Of a DNA stretch of 64,000 nt, positions 5,440 to 56,384 are shown in pieces; position 1 is the first letter of the stretch, and each line of letters opens with the position of its first letter. The translations under genes and the position numbers were made by a program. Origin of the DNA: Anaerobacillus sp. CMMVII (GTDB taxonomy: Bacteria > Bacillota > Bacilli > Bacillales > Anaerobacillaceae); assembly GCF_025377685.1 (NCBI RefSeq), contig NZ_JACEHK010000017.1, forward strand, positions 62,001-126,000. Reading direction: 5' to 3'. The notes under the pieces were generated by a model. That model was not told where the DNA came from. It ran no database searches and saw only the letters and a program-made list of their open reading frames with translations.

Positions 5440-6523
5440 GTGATAGTTTTGAACTCAATAAAACTGTTTATTAAACAAGCTTACCAATCTGACCATGTGT
5501 TAGAAATTATATTTTCTTCATTAAGATGGTTTTTTCTACTAGTGTCTACCGCAGTTTTTTACGTTAGATATAATACAAACCCCGTCGAAACACACTTATA
5601 CTTGTTTGTATTTTTGTTAATTTTTGGGGTTACCTATATGGCATTATCCGATATTTGCTTACGTCGGACAGCTGAAGACTCCTTCATGTATACCTTGATG
5701 ACAAAAGGTGGCCCATTTTTTGATTTCATCGCTTTTTTTTGCCTTAATATCTTTAACAGGGGGTATTTTTAGCCCTTTAACGCCAATAGCCTACTTAATC
5801 ATTTTACATGTTGCTGTCTATTGGAAATTTATTGGTGCAATTATTGCCTCATTTCTGTTTGTTTTAGGTTTTTCAGTTGTATTTACGGTTCAAGGAAATC
5901 TACTGTTATCTTTTGATTTTATGACGTATAGTACACAGCTTGTATTCTTCCTATTAGTTGGGTTTTTAGGTGGGATTATCGTCTCTAGAGAAAGAAAACA
6001 TTTTATAGAAAAGAATGTTTTTGAAAGTCTAGCAAACAAAGACCATTTGACTACTCTTTTTAACCACCGCTCTTTCCAAGAACAGTTACGTATAGCCAAA
6101 GAAAAAAACATCAATTTTTATCTAGTATTTTGTGATATTGACGAGTTTAAGACTGTTAATGATAAATATGGTCATGTTGTTGGCGATCTAGTATTAAAGA
6201 AGATTGCCAAAATACTTAGTGCAACTGTTCCTACAAGTCTTGGAACTGTATTTCGCTATGGAGGAGAAGAGTTTGCGATCTTATTATATACAGATCAATC
6301 CTCTGTTGTAGAGGAACTACTTATAGATGTGAAACAAAAAGTAGCGGAAGAAGTACATTACTGTCACGGTGGAAAGTTCTCGGTGACAATGAGTTTTGGA
6401 TGTAGTAAAAATGGGAAAGAGGAGCCAATTGAATTAATTGAAGAAGCTGATAAATTACTATATGAAGCGAAACGGCAGGGCCGTAATCGAGTCGTTCAAA
6501 GTAAAGAAGTAAAAATTGGATAA
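5440..6523 (+). pseudogene. Membrane diguanylate cyclase (GGDEF) split by a frameshift in a T8 run
   Basis: Two overlapping reading frames make one protein. The first (5440-5772) gives the N-terminal membrane segments; the second (open to 6523) gives more membrane segments and a GGDEF domain. Removing one T from the T8 run at 5733-5740 joins them into about 360 residues, with the junction reading DFIAFFALISLTGGIFSPL. The GGDEF domain has DxLTxLxNHRSF, FCDIDEFKTVND and the active-site motif YGGEEF, so the catalytic half is intact. Product would be c-di-GMP from two GTP at the membrane. The break could be a true mutation, a sequencing error, or be bypassed by slippage on T8; sequence alone cannot decide. 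Confidence 0.75.
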
Positions 6524-18815: not shown

Positions 18816-18841
18816 TTTTTGGCTAGTTTGCCGAATAAATT

Positions 18842-18924
18842 AAAAAGTTGTTCGAATAACTGTAAAAGTTGTTCGAATAACTTCAAAAGTTGTTCGAATA
18901 ACTCAAAAAGTTGTCCGAATAACC
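18842..18924. repeat. Four tandem 21-bp repeats, unit AAAAGTTGTTCGAATAACT
   Basis: Four copies of a 21-bp unit AAAAGTTGTTCGAATAACT plus two variable bases; the last copy has CCG for TCG. Each unit carries an imperfect palindrome GTTGTTCGAATAAC. The array lies between the convergent tcyP and histidinol-phosphatase genes. Because 21 is a multiple of three, both strands translate into heptad-like peptides, but these have no ribosome binding site and I do not call them genes. Confidence 0.85.
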
Positions 18925-42309: not shown

Positions 42310-42504
42310 TTACTTCACCTCTGTTCAATGATTAATTTTATTCTAGCATAAAACTCATTTCTTTATGGAAAAACTAGGATAGGTTCAGTTGTTTATGTCT
42401 GAAAATTTAAACTTTGTATAGTTTCTCAAACTTGGTTTATTTTTCTTGTCAGAAGGAGTATTCTAGATGATATGATGATCTGATGTTATCTTAGGAGGAT
42501 GAAA

Positions 42505-43482
42505 ATGAGCGGTTTATTTGAACAAATTGAAGCAAAAGTAAAAGGTCAATTTCCTTCAATCGTATTTCCTGAAGGAATAGATGAGAGAGTATTAGAAGCA
42601 GCAGTTAAGTTAGGTGAAAATAAAGTTTTACACCCAATTGTTATTGGTAGCCATGAAGCAGTTGGCCAAAAGGCTGCTGAGATCGGTGTTACTCTTGATC
42701 ATGTAGAAGTGATCGATCCTGCTACATACCCAGAATTTGATGAGCTAGTAGCTGCATTTGTTGAGCGTCGTAAAGGGAAAGTGACAGAAGAAGATGCGCG
42801 CACGCAGCTTTTAAATGTTAACTATTTCGGGACAATGCTTGTTTATTTAGGGAAAGCAGCTGGTCTTGTAAGTGGCGCAGCACACTCAACTGGAGATACA
42901 GTTCGCCCTGCTCTTCAAATCATTAAAACGAAAGAAGGTATCCGTAAAACTTCTGGAGTATTCGTAATGGTTAAAGGCGAGCAAAAATTAATCTTTGGTG
43001 ATTGCGCGATCAATATTGCTCCTGATAGCAATGACTTAGCAGAAACAGCGATCGCAGCTGCAGAGACAGCGCGTGTATTCGACATTGATCCAAAAGTGGC
43101 AATGTTAAGCTTTTCAACAAAAGGCTCAGCAAAATCACCTGAAACAGAAAGAGTATCTGAAGCAACACGTCTTGCACAAGAAATGGCACCAAACTTAGTC
43201 ATCGATGGTGAGTTCCAATTCGATGCAGCATTTGTACCTTCTGTAGCAGCGAAGAAAGCTCCAAATTCACCTTTAAAAGGCGAAGCAAATGTTTTCATCT
43301 TCCCAAGCTTAGAAGCAGGAAACATTGGCTACAAAATTGCTCAACGCCTAGGCGAATTCGAAGCAATTGGCCCAATTCTTCAAGGCCTAAACAAACCAGT
43401 CAATGACCTTTCACGTGGCTGTAACGTAGATGACGTGTACAAGCTAGCATTGATTACTGCTATGCAAGGGTTAAACGGATAA
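42505..43482 (+). CDS. pta: Phosphate acetyltransferase
   Basis: Converts acetyl-CoA and phosphate to acetyl phosphate in overflow acetate production. The 325-residue length is that of the short Bacillus type without the N-terminal regulatory part. Conserved stretches: IVFPEGIDERVLEAA at the start, GLVSGAAHSTGDTVRPALQI (about 124-143), MLSFSTKGSAKSPE (about 196-209) and the DGEFQFDAAFVP region. ATG at 42505 follows AGGAGG by six bases; an ATG at 42499 overlaps that site. Ends at a terminator followed by the 52-bp tandem array. Confidence 0.95.
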   Translation: MSGLFEQIEAKVKGQFPSIVFPEGIDERVLEAAVKLGENKVLHPIVIGSHEAVGQKAAEIGVTLDHVEVIDPATYPEFDELVAAFVERRKGKVTEEDARTQLLNVNYFGTMLVYLGKAAGLVSGAAHSTGDTVRPALQIIKTKEGIRKTSGVFVMVKGEQKLIFGDCAINIAPDSNDLAETAIAAAETARVFDIDPKVAMLSFSTKGSAKSPETERVSEATRLAQEMAPNLVIDGEFQFDAAFVPSVAAKKAPNSPLKGEANVFIFPSLEAGNIGYKIAQRLGEFEAIGPILQGLNKPVNDLSRGCNVDDVYKLALITAMQGLNG

Positions 43483-43497
43483 ACTAATTATGGAAAA

Positions 43498-43560
43498 GGA
43501 CTGACGTCGTGAACTGTATCCCGATTTGGAGATGCTGGGCATGGGTCAGTTTTTTTTATA
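43498..43560 (+). terminator. Terminator after pta
   Basis: ACTGAC near 43500 and GTCAGT near 43545 enclose a long loop and are followed by T8. Confidence 0.6.
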
Positions 43561-43596
43561 TGGGTTTGGGAGTGGCGGCTGGTGGTTTATAGGAAG

Positions 43597-44090
43597 TGTA
43601 AAGGGTTCTACGCTAATAAATGTAAAAACAAGTCACATAGAAACATTCTATGTACCTAATTTTCCTAGGAAATGTAAATTCGGTCACGTAGAAGGGTTTT
43701 ATGAGCTGGATTCTCCTAGGAAATGTAAAATTTAGTCTCGTATAAAGGTTTTACGAGCCGAATCCTCCTAGAAAATGTAAAATTTAGTCTCGTAGGAAGG
43801 TTTTATGAGCCTTATCCTCCTAGAAAATGTAAAATTTAGTCTCGTAGGAAGGTTTTACGAGCTGAACTCTCCTAGGATATGTAAAATTTAGTCTCGTATA
43901 AAGATTTTATGAGCTGTATTCTCCTAGAAAATGTAAAATTTAGTCTCGTATAAAGGTTTTACGAGCCGTGTTCTCCTATAAAATGTAAAATTCAGTCTCG
44001 TAGAAGAGTTCTACGTGTCTAACTCTCCTAATAAATGTAAAAATTAGTCGCGTAGAAGAGCACTACCCGCACCCCTTCTCCTGAAAAACA
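43597..44090. repeat. 52-bp tandem repeat array with conserved hairpin, about nine units
   Basis: Units start (at TGTAAA) at 43621, 43673, 43724, 43776, 43828, 43880, 43932, 43984 and 44036, with a partial unit at 43597; spacing is 52 except one of 51. The consensus runs TGTAAAATTTAGTCTCGTA, a variable loop, TTTTACGAGC, then TCCTCCTAG and A's. CTCGTA pairs with TACGAG. In diverged units both arms change together (ACATAG with CTATGT at 43635-43652; CGTAGAA with TTCTACG in the 43984 unit). Lies between convergent pta and lipL. No gene is credible here. Confidence 0.92.
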
Positions 44091-44091
44091 T

Positions 44092-44128
44092 AATGAGGGT
44101 CATGCGGAAGCCCCACGTGACCCTCATT
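44092..44128 (-). terminator. Terminator of lipL
   Basis: AATGAGGGTCA (44092-44102) and TGACCCTCATT (44118-44128) form an 11-bp perfect stem at the downstream end of the minus-strand gene and directly after the repeat array. Confidence 0.7.
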
Positions 44129-44135
44129 CTAAAAT

Positions 44136-44960
44136 TTAAACCCCAAATCCTTCATTTCTTTTCTCCATCCTTGCGAGGTTGGTTTCGTAGAGTGAGAATT
44201 CGTCGTCAAGTAATTGAGTTGATTGGATGGTGATAGATGGGTCGTGCATGATCGTCTTTAATAGTCTCAGCATGACATCCTGCACAGTTAAGTCGAGGCC
44301 TAGTAATTCATTTAGTGAAGCCATTGTGCTTGGCTCAATCGTCGGATAAACAAATTTTGTTTGGTTGCCGTTTACAGCGAGTCGATAAAACTCTTTGATT
44401 AGAGCAGCGCGCTCACTACCGCTTCCGGTTACACATAAATATATTTGTACTGCAACTCCGCCACGGACACGGCGTTGAGAGATACCAGCAAACTTTTTGC
44501 CGTCTATACTTAGGTCATAACTTCCAGGACAGTATGATCCAACAATTTCTCGAGCCTCGATTGCATCAGTAACATCACGGAACATACTTTGTACTAGTTC
44601 ATACATCGCATCATAACCACTATTAATTGAAATTTGTTTATCTTCTTTAAAGATGAGGGATATATTAAGAATACCTTCATCTAAGACAACGGCTAACCCA
44701 CCTGAATTGCGGACAACGGTTCCATAACCAGCTGAGTGGAGATAGTGAACGCCTTCTGTTATAAAAGGTAGCCTACTATCCTGGATGCCTAAGACGACTG
44801 TAGCATGGTGAACCCAAGTTCTGATCACTGGTATTGAACGGCCTTCGCCAACCGAAGTGCAAAGAGTATCATCTGTAGCAAAGGATGTTAGCGGGCTGAA
44901 ATTTGGTCCAAAGGTTGTTTGATCAATAAAACGCCAGTTAGTTATCGAATTTTTACTCAA
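44136..44960 (-). CDS. lipL: Octanoyl-[GcvH]:protein N-octanoyltransferase
   Basis: Moves octanoyl groups from GcvH to lipoate-dependent E2 proteins. The 274-residue protein has the BPL/LplA/LipB fold; the catalytic cysteine is in [19 protein letters not shown] (Cys about 148), and [14 protein letters not shown] (about 83-96) is the ligand loop. TTG start at 44960 with AAGGAGC upstream. In B. subtilis it is ywfL beside pta; here it converges on pta with the tandem array between them. Confidence 0.92.
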
Positions 44961-45060
44961 TTTTTAAAGCTCCTTAGTAAAACTGCTAATTTCCTTTCAT
45001 AATAGCAAATCTTTCATTTGCATAACAAGTAGAAACAAGTGTAAAATACTCTTTAGGCTT

Positions 45061-55458: not shown

Positions 55459-56238
55459 ATGCCTTTTGCAACTCATCAAGATACAACTGAAATTTACTAT
55501 GAAACCTATGGTGAAGGGACGGCGATTTTATTTATCCATCCCCCAGCCATGGGTCATGTTACGTTTAAAAGACAACGTCCTTTGGCCGATCATTTTCAAA
55601 TCATTACAGTCGATTTGCGTGGGAATGGTAGAAGTGGAAATAAAGCTGAAAAAATAACCATGTCTCTCATTGTTGAAGACTTATTAGCTGTCGTAGATGA
55701 AATAGGTGTCAGCAAGGTTGTTGTATGTGGTTATTCAAATGGTGGTTCGATTGCTCAGGAATTTGCTTTATCATTTCCTGACCGAGTAAGTGGTGTGATT
55801 CTTTGTGGTGGTTTTTCCGAAGTGAATAGCTTCTTGCTGCGAAATGAATTTCGCTTAGGCATTTATGCAGCCCAATTTAAGCTTATAAAACTGATGTCCT
55901 TTGCTTTAGCAACGGCTCATACCCGTTCCAAGCTTTTTGAGCTTGAGCTTGAGGATTACGTAAAGAAAACCGACCCAGAAGTGTTGCGTCATATGTACAA
56001 TGAAGGATTGCATTATAAATCAACCGATCGCCTTCATCAGCTAAATGTGCCACTCCTACTTGTCTACGGTGCTAACGACCATTACGTTCACCATTACCAA
56101 GACATCTTTTTAGAAAAAGTAAAAACAAACGTCGACATCGTCTACATCTCAGACGTTAAACACCAAATTCCAACAAAGAAAAGCCTTGAATTGAATAAGG
56201 TGATTTATAATTTTATTAAGAAAAAGATTGAAGTTTAG
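55459..56238 (+). CDS. Alpha/beta hydrolase
   Basis: About 259 residues with the alpha/beta hydrolase fold. The nucleophile is in VVCGYSNGGSIAQEF (G-x-S-x-G, Ser about 92), the acid likely in VYGANDHYVHH, and the histidine in SDVKHQIPTKK. The oxyanion region is LFIHPPAMGHVTF. Substrate unknown; could be an esterase or a C-C hydrolase. ATG at 55459 is chosen with GGTGG upstream; an in-frame GTG at 55441 is possible. Its stop falls at the edge of a palindromic repeat. Confidence 0.82.
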   Translation: MPFATHQDTTEIYYETYGEGTAILFIHPPAMGHVTFKRQRPLADHFQIITVDLRGNGRSGNKAEKITMSLIVEDLLAVVDEIGVSKVVVCGYSNGGSIAQEFALSFPDRVSGVILCGGFSEVNSFLLRNEFRLGIYAAQFKLIKLMSFALATAHTRSKLFELELEDYVKKTDPEVLRHMYNEGLHYKSTDRLHQLNVPLLLVYGANDHYVHHYQDIFLEKVKTNVDIVYISDVKHQIPTKKSLELNKVIYNFIKKKIEV

Positions 56239-56384
56239 AGTGTTGAGTGTTGAGTTATGAGTTATGAGTTATGAGTTATTGGAAGAAAGGCTTCGAAGCG
56301 GTACTATCAGCAACTCAAAACTCAACACTCCTAACTCAAAACTAAAAAAGCAACTCAAAACTCAACACTCCTAACTCAAAACTA
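56238..56384. repeat. Heptamer-arm palindrome, copy D, with duplicated right arm
   Basis: Left arm: GAGTGTT twice then GAGTTAT four times (56238-56279). Centre: AAAGGCTTCGAAGCGGTACT. Right arm: a 36-base segment with AACTCAAAACTCAACACTCC present twice (56309-56344 and 56349-56384, identical). The second copy provides the TAG stop of the metal ATPase gene on the minus strand. Confidence 0.88.

Follow-up and report, generated by a model that had tools for sequence, protein, structure and literature searches.

A dispersed family of 52-bp intergenic tandem repeats with a nearly invariant box in two genera of Bacillales

Introduction

Bacterial minisatellites mostly serve as typing markers and are regarded as neutral. 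BOX elements of Streptococcus pneumoniae, in the part of their description used here, are dispersed repeats holding a variable tandem boxB array, which boxA and boxC flank, and their terminal inverted repeats are likened to an insertion sequence (PMC3049150). The portion of the REP and BIME literature drawn on here presents these sequences as short intergenic palindromes, tandem in some families and linked to RAYTs, with REPs of the CGTC class lacking a dedicated Y1 transposase (PMC3733652).

Here, we analyse a tandem repeat of Anaerobacillus sp. CMMVII found in a 64,000-nucleotide stretch of contig NZ_JACEHK010000017.1 (the window, meaning the whole stretch analysed, whose numbering is used for its features below). 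The array in the window is one of a dispersed, intergenic 52-bp repeat family, with about ten arrays in the source genome.

Results

The tandem array in the window was confirmed between two convergent genes that lie outside the repeat family, the forward-strand pta (phosphate acetyltransferase, 42499–43482; TIGR00651, 411 bits, cut-off 311) and the reverse-strand lipL (octanoyl-[GcvH]:protein N-octanoyltransferase, 44136–44960; NF053589, 425 bits, cut-off 400), which end at 43482 and 44136, respectively. Nine phased units with half-unit edges span 43606–44089 on the forward strand, the first beginning at 43610 in the CTCC register, and TRF reports a period of 52 with 7.7 copies and 84% matches over 43658–44057. 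Seven of the eight unit-to-unit steps measure 52 bp and one measures 51 bp, in agreement with the arrangement of about nine units between convergent genes given in a preliminary description of this DNA. A leading half dyad (TTCTACG, 43606–43612) stands 5′ of the first box; unit 1 (43610–43661) carries the dyad ACATAGAA/TTCTATGT and is followed by the 51-bp unit 2 (43662–43712), by units 3–7 of 52 bp each with the dyad CTCGTA/TA(C or T)GAG (43713–43972), by unit 8 with CGTAGAA/TTCTACG (43973–44024) and by a ninth, degraded unit at the edge (44025–44071), all on the forward strand. The conserved box described below occurs once per unit, for example as CCTA-N5-TGTAAAA at 43923–43938 of the same strand. 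The whole unit repeats and, because unique spacers are absent, the array is not CRISPR-like, as the preliminary description had also held; no cas genes were seen among those array neighbours that were annotated, and no ToxN-type gene, the mark of type III toxin–antitoxin repeat RNAs, adjoins the window array, its neighbours being pta and lipL.

In the source genome, we found nine arrays by TRF together with two short remnants (L062 with two units and L025 with one degraded unit) and one likely assembly duplicate, L021, of array L020; a DNA search of this genome returned 20 matches on eight contigs (E up to 0.001). L020 (5580–6800) and L021 (5770–6866) present the same array and flank in inverted orientation 25 kb apart; L021 carries small deletions and sits where a contig ends, and it is probably an assembly fold-back of L020. 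L021 was accordingly left out of the pairing and diversity tests and kept in the TRF, step and free-stem counts.

Related genomes, in which the preliminary description had proposed to look for the unit, yielded the family in five of seven and five of nine species of two genera. A sequence model of two units (R1), for which no more than 150 candidates per genome were scored so that weak solo copies could escape, was positive in five of the seven genomes of the source genus (E up to 0.01); one of these, G005, is weak with R1 (4.4e-4), but TRF gives one 52-bp and one 51-bp array there. Two genomes, G002 and G004, were array-free in both the R1 search and a scan for exact box matches. A second model that included diverged arrays (R2) was positive in 10 of 397 genomes and two of 135 genera sampled from the order, under strict order-wide filters by which weak matches were lost. 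In the second genus, taken as Fredinandcohnia, five of nine genomes were R2-positive, and it was the only positive one among four genera of its family (5/17 genomes). Pattern scanning of named genomes located arrays in Fredinandcohnia onubensis, F. quinoae and Bacillus timonensis. A stricter first pattern scan of a genome contig collection, from which the source genome and near ones may be absent, returned nothing, and a looser one returned nine records, seven of them Fredinandcohnia or B. timonensis; the other two, assigned to Nealsonbacteria, have no 52–53-bp array and were taken as chance matches. Altogether, the set comprises 36 arrays, which fall into about 11 unit types and come from two genera belonging to different families; the repeat stands in tandem at numerous places between genes, as in a dispersed minisatellite family. 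The window array was unmatched in plasmid and phage collections, the tandem pattern had no match among viral contigs, and no description of this repeat was recognised in the literature searched, whose coverage takes in few subscription journals.

The length of the unit is nearly constant. Among 35 fetched loci (L021 counted), TRF gave a period of 52 in 27, of 51 in two and none such in six; without the duplicate, the period is 52 at 26 of 34 loci. Loci of the Fredinandcohnia group have units of 53 bp, except in F. quinoae, TRF giving a period of 53 at those of F. onubensis and B. timonensis, and in B. timonensis a 52-bp stretch adjoins the 53-bp one. The distance from box to box, found with a chain finder that favours about 52 (as TRF does not), was 52 in 149, 53 in 17 and 51 in 13 of 185 steps; leaving out L021, which supplies 12 steps, eight of them of 52, the count is 141 of 173. 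Five helical turns of 10.4–10.6 bp amount to 52–53 bp, and the earlier suggestion of a unit of about five turns holds, with a period of 51–53 bp maintained in two genera.

The element conserved within this unit is not the hairpin stressed by the preliminary description but a box that it had overlooked, CCTA-N5-TGKAAAA (K = T or G), which occupies positions 1–16 when the first C of CCTA is position 1. This 16-bp box is nearly invariant inside arrays and common to both genera, and the remaining 36 bp are genome-specific. Mean within-array diversity is 0.023 at ten box positions versus 0.174 at positions 17–52, and diversity is lower in the box than in the rest of the unit in 23 of 24 arrays, including those that lack a dyad, with L081 as the exception; this test left out arrays with fewer than four intact units as well as L073 and L074, and counted units unseen between two located ones. 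Over 30 arrays, identity between genomes is 73% for the box and 36% for positions 17–52, and between arrays within a genome 82% and 61%, respectively; because units were located by the box itself (allowing up to two mismatches, with tighter patterns in eight arrays), these measures of box conservation are partly ascertainment and thus inflated. Exact matches to the box followed by AG(G/T)C number 78 in G000, 36 in G001 and 14 in G003, with none in G002 and G004, and 127 of these 128 lie inside arrays (four of them, on G001:C32, assigned by spacing alone), the sole exception being G000:C17:367476.

Arrays are homogeneous in their interiors and degraded at their edges. The array L024 is 87% alike to L061, located elsewhere in its own genome, and 56% alike to one unit of L027, at the same locus in G003; in the G003 array L068, interior units are of the GGGC type and those at one end of the CGTAG type. 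The likeness of L024 to L061 and the mixed composition of L068 indicate that units have spread between loci of one genome, and the view put forward earlier that the array reflects more than a single recent duplication is upheld.

Few sites are shared among the fetched loci of the source genus, namely that of L024 with L027 and, by one flanking gene, that of L073 with L079. The array at pta–lipL is absent from two sister species, G003 (with a 129-bp gap) and G002, where the gene pair is also convergent. One Fredinandcohnia-group site does hold an array in four genomes, three of them named F. onubensis: L081, L082, L083 and L084 share flanks and have 10, 6.2, 5.3 and 3.2+2.2 units, so that the copy-number comparison suggested earlier reveals a difference at this one locus, between species rather than strains. 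Of 32 loci with both neighbours called, based on mechanical ORFs of at least 90 aa, nine are convergent, 20 co-directional and three divergent. No kind of neighbouring gene stands out as shared among the neighbours compared and 20 that were scanned; alike pairs were L020/L021, orthologous-looking or one-gene pairs across genomes, and a distant pair, L028–L075 (32%). One neighbour, at L065, is a DDE transposase. At L026 (6114–7490), a 52-bp array is split by an element that, on visual inspection, resembles an IS3-type insertion sequence.

Each unit of the window array contains an inverted repeat, as first noted: 88.9% of 81 cells pair in register, versus 32–52% when one arm is slid by 1–3 bases, and the consensus dyad stands out from its own shuffles (p 0.005). 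The claim that both arms change together stands for unit 1, whose ACATAGAA/TTCTATGT is truly two-sided; the change in the unit at 43983 is mostly an inward extension of the stem. Covariation, which the preliminary description proposed to check, is thin inside this array, with pairing of 88.9% compared to 85.4% when shuffled (40 of 500 shuffles as high), two-sided changes at two of nine pairs (130/500 as high) and a covariation score reached by 6/500 shuffles. Selection on pairing would have to be inferred from other arrays, and these bear it out only in part.

Across arrays, the dyad is centred at unit positions 32.5–33, with pairing peaking at i+j=65–66, centres being chosen after inspection of the data. 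It is significant against own-unit shuffles (p<0.05) in only 12 of 30 arrays, the window array included, and selection on hairpin pairing as the main theme, as proposed earlier, is not supported; the 18 arrays without significance are the five of G001, L024, L061, L087 and ten others. The dyad keeps its place with differing sequences across genomes, reading CTCGTA/TACGAG in the source genome, CGGGC/GCCCG in G003, GTGCATTGA/TCAATGCAC and GCATCAA/TTGATGC in G005, and ACTCT/AGAGT in L089. A free search for the best stem per array reached p<0.05 in 12 of 37 (L021 included), a picker restricted to Watson–Crick pairs identified a stem in 10 of 36, and RNAalifold, run on an initial set of 36 aligned dimers, predicted no consensus pair. 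L025, L027, L028 and L078, in which fewer than two units were located, entered none of the pairing and conservation tests, and tests that need three units also left out the two-unit arrays L023, L062, L070, L076, L077 and L083.

When 3′ halves were swapped between arrays, with L082 and L084 left out as belonging to the locus of L081, the observed pairing total was never reached in 20,000 permutations. Swapping arms inside one genome gave no significant difference (observed 123, mean 115.0, reached in 2547/20000), and since such swaps pair nearly as well, stems are a property of the genome and not of the array, and what speaks independently for the dyad is how many unit types there are. With one array per unit type, hand-picked as the largest where there was a choice and omitting the G003 array L066, which has the source-genome type, six of 11 were significant at p<0.05 (combined p 5.9e-6). 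In an alignment of 48 dimers, two-sided changes occupy 107 cells versus 63.4 when shuffled (0/500), a figure that relatedness inflates. Over 36 arrays, Watson–Crick pairs at the dyad reach 0.437 compared to 0.307 when swapped (z 7.3), and G–T and A–C are both depleted (0.081 versus 0.101 expected, and 0.099 versus 0.118, respectively), which constitutes a symmetric, duplex-type signal. G–T outnumbers A–C by 8:2 in the window array and by 11:0 in L020, with the reverse in L030, and distinct mispair cases number 20 for G–T and 14 for A–C (p 0.39). Tolerance of G–U on one strand, which a structured RNA family should display, was not seen over the 36 arrays, and as G–T is not favoured over A–C, pairing in RNA is not supported. 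The dyad either acts in duplex DNA or is renewed by template switching.

Other repeats were seen in the window and at further loci. At 18832–18923 of the window, a transporter-like gene and a gene convergent with it flank a 21-bp array of 4.4 copies of the TTGTTCGAATAACTnnAAAAG type; each unit spans two helical turns, and the array may form a small family in its own right. At 56238–56384, runs of TGAGTTA (7 bp) lie close to a tandem duplication of 40 bp with abundant ACTCAAA. In G129, the region downstream of pta (L106, about 2470–2900) holds a different array, which shows, by eye, CGTGCAnAT motifs about 20–25 bp apart. In G006, 37-bp tandem repeats adjoin the 52-bp array (L074, 308–474). The sequence CGCAAAGTTTGTTGCTTTCGTAAAAATAC abuts the end of the L061 array (about 5690–5750) and recurs in a 201-bp tandem repeat of another species (L063, 7952–8358).

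Discussion

The account we favour, with confidence that is about even, is that of a dispersed, concertedly evolving intergenic satellite whose box is read as duplex, most likely by a DNA-binding protein with sequence specificity. Every unit, about 52 bp long, would offer one CCTA-N5-TGKAAAA box to this putative protein, and boxes five helical turns apart would lie on one face of the helix, where the protein could bind side by side; such phasing would then be the cause of the 52-bp length. The dyad, about 25 bp from the centre of the box, may belong to the site as a second component that changes faster, or may arise as a side effect of template switching. On this account, units are homogenised inside each array and pass from array to array within a genome, which gives each species a unit type of its own. 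We consider the fixed box, its spacing on one face and its near-exclusive occurrence in arrays to be best explained by a protein that reads duplex DNA and depends on multiple boxes. The beneficiary may be the chromosome, in architecture, segregation or titration, or only the array itself, and the patchy presence of arrays (five of seven and five of nine species) implies that hosts can dispense with them. A more far-reaching version is a nucleoprotein scaffold, in which the putative protein would occupy every box at about ten chromosomal sites and co-evolve with the species-specific dyad, by analogy with centromere satellites; this we regard as possible and rather doubtful.

An equal degree of box conservation would be produced by an enzyme that amplifies a selfish repeat and requires the box, which counts against the protein-read satellite, and the fixed period could be inherited without selection because the arrays of one genome share ancestry. 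Such a repeat, its box and perhaps its dyad read by an enzyme from another locus (a transposase, a recombinase or a nicking enzyme), with only box-bearing units copied and dispersed, fits the fact that most of the fetched sites are unshared between source-genus species, the empty pta–lipL sites of G003 and G002, the genome-specific unit types spread across loci and mixed in L068, and Y1 transposases in six of eight genomes. However, insertion of single units should leave solo copies, which are scarce (1/128 and the degraded L025), Y1_Tnp is absent from the array carriers G129 (100% complete) and G005 (80% complete) yet has 7 and 17 matches in the array-free G002 and G004, and the Fredinandcohnia-group locus keeps its array in four genomes; we judge a selfish origin rather improbable. 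Slippage and unequal recombination of an arbitrary unit in which nothing is recognised, with the dyad renewed by quasi-palindrome template switching, would account for degraded edges and homogeneous interiors, for copy numbers that vary at one locus (L081–L084) and for annotated neighbours that are unrelated genes, and the equal depletion of G–T and A–C also fits templated correction. Against such a plain minisatellite, which we hold to be unlikely, stand the position-specific drop in diversity within the box, seen in 23 of 24 arrays, and the sharing of one box by two genera of different families.

Two of the three functions that the preliminary description had floated for the array fare less well. 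Transcribed arrays whose hairpins act in RNA, as a repeat RNA, a sponge or processing signals, would agree with the folding of both array strands better than 100 of 100 shuffles (z −3.07 and −3.06), with the two-sided changes between arrays and with the excess of G–T in the window array and L020, but over 36 arrays G–T is unenriched, so that wobble pairs are not favoured, L030 leans the opposite way, and 18 of 30 arrays have no significant dyad. Furthermore, Rfam gave no gathering-level match in any array at the seven loci tested, where its hits (two of Bacillaceae-1 at L080 and one of BsrC at L017) all lie outside the arrays, and in positions 42400–45000 of the window it returned nothing even at E 0.5, its only two matches there (E 0.52 and 0.86) being at chance level and falling far below gathering scores; no sigma-70-like promoter was found in 43400–44250. 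A role as structured RNA is very improbable. The two Bacillaceae-1 RNAs (RF01690) lie near the F. quinoae array, at L080 2471–2537 and 4348–4414. A terminator, roadblock or insulator for convergent transcription suits the setting in the window, but the sister sites in G003 and G002 are empty despite their convergent pair, only nine of 32 loci are convergent against 20 co-directional and three divergent, and a scan of 43400–44250 found no terminator-like site, for which reasons we give an element local to pta–lipL hardly any credence.

The family separates constants, namely the 16-bp box, the unit length and the position of the dyad, from sequence that drifts. For the protein-read satellite that we favour, the box offers a direct route to its putative reader. 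Should the arrays be scaffolds, Bacillales would possess a kind of site for organising the chromosome that is new as a class; should they be selfish, they would represent a system of amplification with almost no solo copies left behind.

CENP-B box satellites consist of fast-changing, species-specific, homogenised units surrounding one conserved box. The 52-bp family may be compared to them by analogy, as genome-specific, drifting units around a conserved box, but it is bacterial and forms short arrays at many sites, and its reader protein is putative. With REP and BIME sequences, as characterised in the portion of PMC3733652 drawn on, it has in common short palindromes between genes, which in some REP and BIME families are likewise tandemly reiterated. 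Their tag, an unpaired GTAG or CGTC at the foot of the palindrome, was not seen as judged from the alignment, where the bases at this place vary (AGTC, AGGC, CGGGC, ACACG) and CGTAG is confined to the interior of the arm in some stems; solitary or paired copies are scarce too, with one of 128 exact matches outside arrays, and the presence of arrays does not track Y1 transposases as a RAYT link would have it, these being absent in G129 and G005 and present with 7 and 17 matches in G002 and G004. BOX elements resemble the family more closely in kind, as dispersed repeats with a variable tandem array of short units, but the 52-bp arrays have no visible common flanking modules of the sort reported in the part of PMC3049150 used here, and fade instead into degraded units. 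The MIRU/VNTR minisatellites of mycobacteria are likewise similar in kind, and relative to their description in the excerpts of PMC3914561 consulted, the 52-bp family is set apart by a period that hardly varies and by a nearly invariant box surrounded by sequence specific to each genome. The family is therefore of the MIRU and BOX array kind, unlike REP and BIME.
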